A program made the position numbers and the translations under genes. DNA of 64,000 nt from Hydrogenophilales bacterium (GTDB taxonomy: Bacteria > Pseudomonadota > Gammaproteobacteria > Burkholderiales > Thiobacillaceae): positions 1-64,000 of the forward strand of contig JAGXGM010000028.1 of NCBI GenBank assembly GCA_024636675.1, in the 5' to 3' direction. How positions within the stretch are numbered: position 1 is the first letter of the stretch; the number at the start of each line of letters is the position of its first letter. This document shows positions 3,587 through 16,951 of the stretch, one piece after another. The notes beneath the pieces were generated by a model. The model saw only the letters and a list, made by a program, of their open reading frames with translations. It was not told the DNA's origin and searched no databases.

Positions 3587-4546
3587 ATGCAAACGATTCA
3601 GCAGGAAATTGACGAAAGAACCAATCTGACCAGCTCCAACAAACTGGAGCTCTTGCTGTTTCGCTTGGGGGAGGATGCCAATCTCGATCGAAACGAACTG
3701 TTTGGCATCAACGTTTTCAAGATTCGGGAAATCATCCCCATGCCGATCATCACGGCGGTGGCCGGATCACATGACCATATGATGGGCGTGGTCGACCTGC
3801 GCGGCCAGATCATCCCCGTCATCAACTTGCCGGCGGTCACTGGATGCACCCCCAAAACCGGGCTGAATATCCTGCTGATTACCGAGTATGCCCGCAGCAC
3901 TCAGGCCTTTGCCGTCGAGTCGGTGGAGGACATCGTGCGTCTCGACTGGCGTCAGGTGCTGTCGGCCGAGGGCAATGCCGCCGGCGGCATGGTGACCAGC
4001 CTCGCCCGCCTGGACGGCGAAAACAGCGACCGCCTGGCGCAGGTGCTGGACGTGGAAACGATCCTGCGCAAGGTGATGCCGCCGACCGAACCGGACATCG
4101 ATACCGCCACCATTGGTGCCACTGTGGAGATCAAACCAGGCACTGTCATCCTGGCCGCAGACGATTCACTGATCGCGCGCACCATGATCGAACAGGGACT
4201 GGAAGCCATGGGCCTGCCCTTCATCATGTGCAAGACGGGCAAGGAAGCCTGGGATCATTTGCAGGCCATTTCCGACAAGGCAGAAGCCGAGGGAACAACC
4301 GTGCACGACAGGATCGCCCTGGTACTGACCGATCTGGAAATGCCCGAAATGGACGGTTTCACCCTTACCCGAAACATCAAGCAGGATCCTCGTTTCAGCA
4401 ACATTCCCGTGGTGATCCATTCTTCGCTGACCGGCTCTGCCAACGAGACGCACGTCAAGAATGTGGGGGCGGATGCCTATGTGGCGAAGTTCGTCGCAGA
4501 GGATCTGGCGAATGCCCTGCGCAAGGCACTGGGCGCGATGCATTGA
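3587..4546 (+). CDS. cheV: Chemotaxis coupling protein CheV (CheW domain fused to receiver domain)
   Basis: The start is the ATG at 3587; the longer ORF in the track runs back through ycgR. The 319-residue protein has an N-terminal CheW-like domain (ELLLFRLG, VVDLRGQIIPVINL) and a C-terminal receiver domain with the acidic pair in LAADDS and the phospho-acceptor Asp in LTDLEMPEMDG. CheV couples receptors to CheA like CheW, and phosphorylation of its receiver by CheA is thought to give a second adaptation path. It is the last gene of the left-hand operon and faces fliE across an unusual repeat array. Confidence 0.94.
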   Translation: MQTIQQEIDERTNLTSSNKLELLLFRLGEDANLDRNELFGINVFKIREIIPMPIITAVAGSHDHMMGVVDLRGQIIPVINLPAVTGCTPKTGLNILLITEYARSTQAFAVESVEDIVRLDWRQVLSAEGNAAGGMVTSLARLDGENSDRLAQVLDVETILRKVMPPTEPDIDTATIGATVEIKPGTVILAADDSLIARTMIEQGLEAMGLPFIMCKTGKEAWDHLQAISDKAEAEGTTVHDRIALVLTDLEMPEMDGFTLTRNIKQDPRFSNIPVVIHSSLTGSANETHVKNVGADAYVAKFVAEDLANALRKALGAMH

Positions 4547-4547
4547 G

Positions 4548-4651
4548 GTTCAAGGTGCAAGATTCAAGATGCAAGTTACAAGTTGTTCGTCGCCAGGCAT
4601 AAAGCCGTACGCTTCGTGTGAACCTTGTATCTTGATACCTTGCAACTTGAA
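4548..4651. repeat. Inverted arrays of 7-nt NNNCAAG units at the cheV/fliE junction
   Basis: Directly after the cheV stop there are five perfect consecutive heptads with CAAG as the last four bases (GTTCAAG, GTGCAAG, ATTCAAG, ATGCAAG, TTACAAG at 4548-4582). After a ~40-nt spacer the complement CTTG appears four times with 7-8 nt spacing (4624-4649). The two halves therefore form a broken inverted repeat that could fold as a long RNA hairpin in either direction. The same design occurs at 16185-16270. Mechanism and mobility are unknown. Confidence 0.85.
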
Positions 4652-4678
4652 GCCCCCGCGAAGCGAGGGCGATCTGCT
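4652..4678 (+). terminator. Possible intrinsic terminator between cheV and fliE
   Basis: GCCCCCGCGAAGCGAGGGC forms a GC-rich hairpin with one mismatch and a GAA loop, followed after a short gap by CTTTT. It lies immediately before the end of the oppositely oriented fliE gene, where read-through from cheV would need to stop. The T-run is short and not directly adjacent to the stem, so the call is tentative. Confidence 0.4.
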
Positions 4679-4679
4679 T

Positions 4680-5039
4680 TTAAATGCCCATGTTCATGAT
4701 GTTCTGATATGCCTCCACCAGCTTGTTGCGCACCTGCACAGTCTGCTGCAGGGCGATGCTGGATTTCTGCAATGAGATCATGGCGTCAGAGAGGCTGACC
4801 GTGCTGTCGCCCATTTCAAAACGCTGGGCCATCTGCTGAGACTGCTTCTGGACCTGATTGACCTGATCGAGCGAAGTTTTTAGGACTGAGTGAAAGTCGG
4901 TCGCACCGGCAGCCGGTTTGGCCTGCAGGGCACCGTCGCTCAGGGGGTTGGCATTTGCAGGGGACGTGCGTGCCGCCGCAGCCTGCAGCTGCGCCATCAT
5001 CGCTTCGATCCGGCCTGTGTCGATTGCACCAATGCTCAT
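4680..5039 (-). CDS. fliE: Flagellar hook-basal body protein FliE
   Basis: A 119-residue protein with the FliE C-terminal pattern (DAMISLQKSSIALQQTVQVRNKLVEAY, then NIMNMG). FliE sits in the periplasm between the MS ring and the proximal rod and is the first axial protein exported. The start ATG has a strong ribosome site (AAAGGAGG). It is transcribed alone and divergently from fliF, as in enteric bacteria and unlike the fliEFGHIJ order found in many other proteobacteria. Confidence 0.95.
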   Translation of the reverse strand: MSIGAIDTGRIEAMMAQLQAAAARTSPANANPLSDGALQAKPAAGATDFHSVLKTSLDQVNQVQKQSQQMAQRFEMGDSTVSLSDAMISLQKSSIALQQTVQVRNKLVEAYQNIMNMGI

Positions 5040-15378: not shown

Positions 15379-16167
15379 ATGATCAGCCTCACCGATGCCC
15401 AGCTCAATACCTGGCTGATCAATTTCATCTGGCCGCTCACCCGCATTCTCGGGCTGATCATGGTCGCGCCGGTATTCGGGCACCGTTCGGTGCCCGGGCG
15501 CGTCAAGATCGGGCTCGGTGTTTTCATCGCCCTGATCATCGCGCCCACCCTACCGCCGATGCCCGATGTCGGCCTGGGGTCGTGGCATGGCCTGTTCATC
15601 CTGGTGCAGCAACTGCTCATTGGCATCGCGATCGGCTTCATCATGCGCATCATTTTTGCTGCGGTCGAAGCCGCCGGCGAAATCGTAGGCCTGCAGATGG
15701 GCCTGGGGTTTGCGTCCTTTTTCGACCCGCAAAGTGCCGGCCAGACGCTGGTGCTGGCCCGGTTCTTCAATATGCTGGCGCTGCTGGTGTTCCTCGCGGT
15801 CAACGCCCACCTGCTGCTGATCGGCGTGCTGGTCGACAGTTTCCAAACCCTGCCCATCAGCCCGCAACCGCTCTCGGCGGCGGGGTTCTACAACGTAGCC
15901 GCCTTCGGTTCCACCGTGTTTGCCGTCGGCCTGCAGCTGGCGCTGCCGCTGATTGCCATCCTGCTGATGACCAATCTATCGCTCGGCATCCTCACACGCG
16001 CGGCGCCCCAGCTCAACATCTTTGCGATCGGTTTCCCCATTACCCTGGGCGTGGGACTGATTGTGGTGGATCTCACCCTGCCCTACTTTGTCCCCCAGCT
16101 TGAACAGATGCTCCAGCACGGGTTCCAGGCAACGACCACGGTGATCCAGACGTTGCGTCCGGAATGA
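15379..16167 (+). CDS. fliR: Flagellar export gate protein FliR
   Basis: The ATG at 15379 is preferred over the longer ORF because the upstream codons read from fliQ and give no family match. The 262-residue protein has about six membrane helices and the FliR features LTRILGLIMVAPVFGHRSVP and AGEIVGLQMGLGFASFFDP. It is the last gene of the fliL operon; flhB, which normally follows or lies nearby, is not in the window. The gene ends just before the second heptad-repeat array. Confidence 0.95.
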   Translation: MISLTDAQLNTWLINFIWPLTRILGLIMVAPVFGHRSVPGRVKIGLGVFIALIIAPTLPPMPDVGLGSWHGLFILVQQLLIGIAIGFIMRIIFAAVEAAGEIVGLQMGLGFASFFDPQSAGQTLVLARFFNMLALLVFLAVNAHLLLIGVLVDSFQTLPISPQPLSAAGFYNVAAFGSTVFAVGLQLALPLIAILLMTNLSLGILTRAAPQLNIFAIGFPITLGVGLIVVDLTLPYFVPQLEQMLQHGFQATTTVIQTLRPE

Positions 16168-16184
16168 GAGACACGTTGCATGAG

Positions 16185-16270
16185 ATGCAAGCGCCAAGAT
16201 TCAAGTCACAAGGAAAACCTACCCCGTTCAACTTGAAACTTGAAACTTGAAACTTGAAACTTGAAACTTG
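16185..16270. repeat. Inverted arrays of 7-nt NNNCAAG units at the fliR/cheZ junction
   Basis: Four perfect heptads ending in CAAG (ATGCAAG, CGCCAAG, ATTCAAG, TCACAAG; 16185-16212) are followed by a ~19-nt spacer and then six CTTG at exact 7-nt steps (16232-16270), of which five units are identical CTTGAAA. The array fills the gap between the convergent fliR and cheZ genes and ends only a few bases from the cheZ stop. The layout copies the one at 4548-4651. Confidence 0.92.
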
Positions 16271-16276
16271 AGCCTG

Positions 16277-16951
16277 TCAGAAGCCCAGGCTATCGAGCAG
16301 ATCGTCCACCTGGCTTTGGTCGGCCACCACGTCGCTCTTCTTCTCCGGATTGATCTGCGGACCGTTGAGCAGGCCGCTATTGGATTCACGCTTTATCTCG
16401 GCCGGCGCGTAATCAATCAGCAGTTGCACCAGTTGCTGCTCCATGCTGTGCGCGAGATCGGTCACCTTGCGGATCACCTGACCGGTGAGATCCTGAAAAT
16501 CCTGCGCCATCATGATGTCCAGCAGCTGCTGCTTGGTGGCGCTGGTGTCGTTGCGCATATCGGCCAGGCACTGCATGGTCATCGTGGCCATGTCGCGGTA
16601 ATTGGCTTCCGAAAAGGGGGCTTTGAAGGCCGCCTGCCAGCCATTCAGGATTTCGTCGGCGCCTGCATCGATGCGTTCCTGCATGGGGATGGCGGCATCG
16701 GTGGCGTTGAGCACGCGCTGCGCCGCCTGTTCGGTCATGCGTGCGACATAGTTGAGACGTTCGCGGACGTCGGGGATGTCATGCGTCGCTTTTTCCAGCA
16801 CCTTGTCGAAACCGAGCTCGCGCAGGCTTTCGTGCAGGGTGCGGGTGATCTGGCCAACCCGCGCCAGCATCTCGTCATGTTCGTTCCCTGCGGCGTCCAC
16901 GGCACCGGGTGCGACAGCAACCCCGTCGGAACTGGCGAATTGCGTATCCAC
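16277..16951 (-). CDS. cheZ: CheY-P phosphatase CheZ
   Basis: A 224-residue protein that forms a four-helix bundle and speeds dephosphorylation of CheY-P. The catalytic segment AQDFQDLTGQVIRK carries the Asp and Gln that in E. coli CheZ are D143 and Q147. The C-terminal CheY-binding helix is present (SQVDDLLDSLGF). It begins one base after the end of cheY and shares its sigma-28-type promoter. Confidence 0.96.
   Translation of the reverse strand: MDTQFASSDGVAVAPGAVDAAGNEHDEMLARVGQITRTLHESLRELGFDKVLEKATHDIPDVRERLNYVARMTEQAAQRVLNATDAAIPMQERIDAGADEILNGWQAAFKAPFSEANYRDMATMTMQCLADMRNDTSATKQQLLDIMMAQDFQDLTGQVIRKVTDLAHSMEQQLVQLLIDYAPAEIKRESNSGLLNGPQINPEKKSDVVADQSQVDDLLDSLGF

Follow-up and report, generated by a model that had tools for sequence, protein, structure and literature searches.

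The nearest known case of an inverted array of seven-nucleotide (7-nt) repeats is that of the GGGAATC heptads of Xanthomonas. According to the sections of Rehm et al. (2015; PMC4692102) used here, two Xanthomonas genomes possess 186 and 183 such arrays, with 70 and 75 inverted pairs; the arrays lie near stop codons, are rare between divergent genes, and are explained by the formation of G-quadruplexes by their units (GGGAATC / (GGGANTN)n) in vitro. Here we describe inverted arrays of another heptad, N3CAAG, found in a 64,000-nt stretch (hereafter the window; contig JAGXGM010000028.1, positions 1 to 64,000) of the genome of a Hydrogenophilales bacterium, the genus of which was taken as Thiobacillus by sequence identity. 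To judge from the same sections, the two systems share 7-nt units that are part fixed and part variable, close inverted pairs, nearness to the stop codon on the sense strand and rarity in divergent gaps, so the preliminary description of the window was wrong in stating that no equivalent had been described. The window CAAGNNN units differ, however, in having no recurrent GGG, and because the CAAG arrays are devoid of G-runs, quadruplexes cannot explain the shared layout. In those sections the Xanthomonas repeats are not reported to spread across phyla, to lack the opposite arm order, to change their word at a given site or to enclose terminator-like cores, all of which are features of CAAG arrays. 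The inverted GGGANTN pattern itself had no match in genome G000, and across the class it occurred as one element in one genome, too few for a test of arm order. We consider it about an even bet that the CAAG array is a 3'-end hairpin, a stem-loop with arms made of heptads, that would act on transcript ends.

Other described heptads are more remote. The TAACTGA repeats of marine Beggiatoaceae (MacGregor, 2015; PMC4679880) are, like CAAG arrays, intergenic 7-nt direct repeats with a patchy distribution over phyla, and differ in being located upstream of start codons, in being direct (with one indirect set), and in consisting of a single fixed heptamer. The cyanobacterial short tandemly repeated repetitive (STRR) sequences and the GGGGA(C/T)T repeats of Nostoc are similar as tandem heptanucleotides present at many intergenic loci; the latter differ in that, according to the sections used of PMC4692102, they form few inverted pairs. 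Further heptad repeats have been described in Geobacter. A literature search, the coverage of which excluded most subscription papers, found no publication on CAAG heptads.

The window contains two arrays, both at convergent junctions (Table 1). In the first (array 1, cheV/fliE), the left arm comprises the units GTTCAAG, GTGCAAG, ATTCAAG, ATGCAAG and TTACAAG, and CTTG of the reverse arm begins at 4624, 4631, 4639 and 4646, i.e. with spacings of 7, 8 and 7 nt, so that the register is broken by one inserted base. This confirms the five exact units followed by four reversed ones that had been noted before, and adds the uneven spacing, which had been missed. When folded as RNA, either strand of array 1 gives an extended hairpin (-51.7 and -51.5 kcal/mol; z -4.4 and -4.7), which supports the hairpin proposed earlier. 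The second, longer inverted array (array 2, at 16188-16270 between fliR and cheZ) has four CAAG units, a 19-nt core and six CTTG units. The pattern (CAAGN3)4 gave six overlapping matches over the two arrays and none in 100 dinucleotide shuffles of the window; the anticipated enrichment over shuffled sequence is thus borne out. The whole genome (2.54 Mb, 90 contigs) contains five array loci, three of them at convergent junctions; the fourth (contig C76) is a single arm in sense orientation after a stop codon, and the locus on C49 (L251:1367-1498) has 12 CAAG units without a clear gene end alongside, its flanking genes being ambiguous.

Among 60 sampled genomes the four-unit CAAG pattern is present in 30: besides the window's own genome these are 26 of the 35 other members sampled from the genus, and 3 of the 24 drawn from the order's other families. 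The composition control (the same pattern read backwards) is rare yet present among the sampled relatives. When the inverted pattern was sought in public genomes, at least 117 stretches were retrieved; among the matches listed Pseudomonas forms the majority, and the remainder come from Thiobacillus, Thioalkalivibrio, Halomonas, Bacteroidota, Acidobacteriota, Planctomycetota and others. The order of the arms is fixed. Within the genus, 22 of the 56 genomes searched possess the inverted CAAG/CTTG pair, with 144 overlapping matches to the CAAG-first order and none, in any of the 56, to the CTTG-first order; a set of 16 from Pseudomonas, Thioalkalivibrio and Bacteroidota, selected for holding at least one array, gave 304 overlapping matches and again none (0/16), so that across all 72 genomes the arrangement of a CTTG arm followed by a CAAG arm has no match. 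Base pairing would be equally good in either order, yet only the CAAG-first order occurs. This strictness is established for CAAG words only; in Fulvivirgaceae, AATG words are found in both orders. Among individual arrays, L259:9601-9758 (genome G029) has a CAAG arm of more than 20 units, mostly CAAGGTT, with a short partner arm, and L265:18316-18532 (Pseudomonas G080) comprises two complete inverted arrays that adjoin each other and have near-identical cores, as might result from a duplication of the entire element.

The main rival, possible but on the doubtful side, is that the arrays are functionless heptad satellites, in which the 7-nt repeats would arise by polymerase slippage and the second arm by fold-back copying, and which would persist directly past stop codons because insertions are least harmful there. 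Neutral fold-back copying gives no reason for CAAG to precede CTTG without exception in 72 genomes. The periods of the arrays speak for this rival. Contigs totalling about 1.7 Mb, the greater part not selected for CAAG arrays, were surveyed, and the inverted arrays in them had almost exclusively a period of 7 or its multiple 14, with a few of 8, and none of 4, 5, 10, 11 or 13; a stricter scan agreed, apart from one element each with a period of 9 and 10. Heptads are over-represented in bacteria, for which slippage at the size of the polymerase footprint has been proposed (cited in the sections used of PMC4692102). Inverted arrays of period 8, few in number, were also found in Fulvivirgaceae G094.

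The arrays lie close to gene ends. From the start of the arm to the stop codon, the median distance is 8 nt across many taxa (n=102), 5 nt in the genus (n=44), and 3 nt in a set whose detection did not depend on CAAG; medians of 5-8 nt have no reason under the satellite hypothesis. Divergent gaps are avoided (4/87 vs 73/323, p 4e-5), which taken alone would follow from avoidance of promoters and to that extent agrees with satellites. Convergent gaps are over-represented among the array sites of the genus (13/34, compared with 16/164 for background gaps; odds ratio 5.7, p 1.3e-4), an excess that is marginal outside it (p 0.06); tandem gaps also hold arrays in Thiobacillus and hold most of them in other taxa. 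The bias to convergent junctions suggested by the preliminary description therefore holds in the genus and fails as a general rule, and an element confined to convergent junctions was rejected: the common factor over taxa is nearness to the stop codon, not convergence. The tandem gaps also bear on a distinctly improbable explanation, according to which CAAG on the sense strand is a single-stranded motif of the 3' untranslated region, bound by an RNA-binding protein before a terminator core, with the second arm serving the opposite transcript. Triplets would then not need to pair; however, the inverted pair is usual also in tandem gaps, where no opposite gene ends, and the words vary between relatives.

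The repeated word differs from genome to genome, e.g. CAAGCTN in Pseudomonas, GGTGAGC-like in Thiobacillus G023 and GGGTCAG in G031, and several loci within a genome share one word. The first base of the triplet beside CAAG is C in 93% of the Pseudomonas triplets, and the first arm is on average richer in purines. Fulvivirgaceae G094 (L194-L210) contains inverted heptad arrays of many words, including CAAGCTN, CCAANNT, GATTTNA and AATGACG. A DNA-binding protein that recognizes an oriented array of heptads, making it an insulator, a nucleoid site or a roadblock between transcription units, would account for the fixed polarity, the genus-wide triplet preference and the use of one word at several loci per genome. 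We nevertheless hold it unlikely, since words differ at orthologous junctions within one genus (see below) and within one genome of Fulvivirgaceae, and 7-bp steps fail to keep one helical face. The earlier idea of a protein bound along one face of the DNA is for the latter reason, and for the change of word at the same junction in sister species, a poor fit, and was rejected as the leading explanation.

Comparison of sister species reveals different states of the same two junctions. Among 30 genomes of the genus, the cheV/fliE junction contains CAAG arrays or short CAAG runs in 10 and arrays of other heptads in 4, and the remaining ones have plain hairpins or other sequence; the words found at this orthologous site are CAAG, GTGAGGG, GGTGAGC and GGGTCAG. 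On the CheV + FliE tree the state of the array changes at least three times on supported branches, and eight times by parsimony. The fliR/cheZ junction is occupied by a plain hairpin in L302, L304 and L306, by a long stem that includes CAAG once or twice in L303, L309 and L310, and by a full array in L294, L300, L301, L307, L308 and L316; a core like GCAAGGAAAACCCTG is common to several of them. In L297, L298 and L299 this junction is filled by other repeated intergenic sequences, GCGGCTGAAGCCGCTCCCAC-like and GGCGAGGGCGCCGCTCCTAC-like. These states agree with growth of heptads in place, within the arms of an existing stem-loop, the direction of change not being fixed by them, and with a plain hairpin, a few units or many at the same site, the former objection that the pattern is not what simple slippage gives becomes doubtful. 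The fast shift of words and unit numbers between sister species also fits satellites.

Table 1. Coordinates of the two arrays and their neighbors in the window.
Feature	Position	Strand	Remarks
cheV (CheW + response regulator receiver)	3587..4546	+	stop codon TGA 4544-4546; gene call, Pfam
Array 1 left arm, five N3CAAG units	4548..4582	+	begins 1 nt past cheV stop codon
Array 1 core (spacer), 41 nt	4583..4623	.	core type at most 1 copy per genome
Array 1 right arm, four CTTG units	4624..4649	-	read from sequence
Second hairpin, GCCCCCGCGAAGCGAGGGC then GATCTGCTTTTA	4652..4682	+	beside array 1; kept in sister species
fliE, convergent to cheV	4680..5039	-	gene call, Pfam
fliR (Bac_export_1)	15379..16167	+	gene call, Pfam
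Array 2 left arm, four N3CAAG units	16185..16212	+	read from sequence
Array 2 core, 19 nt	16213..16231	.	read from sequence
Array 2 right arm, six CTTG units, perfect CTTGAAA repeat	16232..16270	-	read from sequence
cheZ, convergent to fliR	16277..16951	-	gene call, Pfam

The second hairpin beside array 1 is a possible candidate for the terminator of cheV. A terminator scan called no canonical intrinsic terminator at either window junction, and the window has no match in Rfam at the gathering score. Part of the array 1 core (4587-4615) resembles the array core of five sister genomes (L324-L328), apparently at another locus; judged from sequence likeness, cores have possibly been exchanged between arrays. 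Repetitive extragenic palindromic (REP) sequences, bacterial interspersed mosaic elements (BIME) and GTAG-tagged palindromes are also extragenic, palindromic and located 3' of genes, in which they are like CAAG arrays; they differ in having no 7-nt register and in occurring as dispersed near-identical copies, unlike the tested core of array 1. That the arrays are mobile or dispersed elements of this kind, or of the miniature inverted-repeat transposable element (MITE) kind, copied between loci, is suggested by the REP-like placement and the core likeness just mentioned, and is very improbable indeed: cores differ between loci, and the low copy number of the tested core led us to reject an element of the REP/MITE type, which is defined by near-identical sequence in many copies.

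The preferred reading, that of a 3'-end hairpin, can be formulated as follows. A stem-loop directly past the stop codon, shared by two genes at convergence and belonging to one gene in tandem gaps, would have had both its arms replaced by 7-nt repeats. These would expand and shrink in place through slippage, as the making of the repeats themselves may also be explained, with no change to the inversion or to which arm comes first. At the RNA level the 5' arm would pair with the 3' arm via CAAG/CUUG every 7 nt around the core, which in Pseudomonas and other taxa often carries the A-tract and T-tract of a bidirectional intrinsic terminator. The role of the element would probably be that of a terminator or of protection of mRNA 3' ends. 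In cores from multiple taxa, T-tracts exceed A-tracts at the core ends (103 vs 24, of 210), and A- and T-tract occur together in 29% of Pseudomonas-type cores vs 0.5% of shuffled ones; satellites give no reason for arms that surround such terminator-like cores. CAAG arrays resemble bidirectional intrinsic terminators in that many cores have both tracts, that some sister species have a plain hairpin in place of the array at a given junction, and that the hairpin formed is stable (array 1; weaker for array 2). Terminators are not known to have heptad arms, and the likeness is one of sequence and predicted fold.

Several points weigh against this reading. Array 2 folds weakly (z -2.1). At Thiobacillus core ends the excess of T-tracts (12 vs 7 A-tracts, of 50) is not significant, so the bidirectional-terminator reading draws its support chiefly from Pseudomonas and other taxa; applied to the arrays of the window, it would be an extension by analogy. 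A covarying stem was tested by swapping arms between elements, and the complementarity of facing triplets showed no excess over the swapped arms (p 0.37 for the Pseudomonas type, 0.14 for Thiobacillus); as facing triplets pair no better than in swapped arms, covariation provides no proof of a selected stem, and triplets without covariation are what satellites would give. The distance from the far arm to the next start codon has a median of 20 nt in tandem gaps, which would leave little room for a promoter if all transcription stopped at the array. Finally, gene positions were taken from a simple purpose-written caller, checked on the window.

A wider and rather tentative possibility is that inverted heptad arrays are one general class of bacterial 3'-end element, selected for polarity and the 7-nt register, in which each genome's preferred word recurs at loci unrelated to each other and gives way to another word at orthologous sites. 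If true, a genome-wide process, such as a reader protein or a biased step of repair or replication, would write or maintain the word of each genome. The sister species provide, at two junctions, natural pairs with and without the array in which its role may be tested. Heptameric repeats are over-represented in bacteria, and the only inverted set studied in depth, that of Xanthomonas, has been explained by G-quadruplexes in the sections of the report cited above; with G-run-free arrays of the same layout in several phyla, the question moves to the role of the 7-nt register, the inversion and the fixed order at gene ends.
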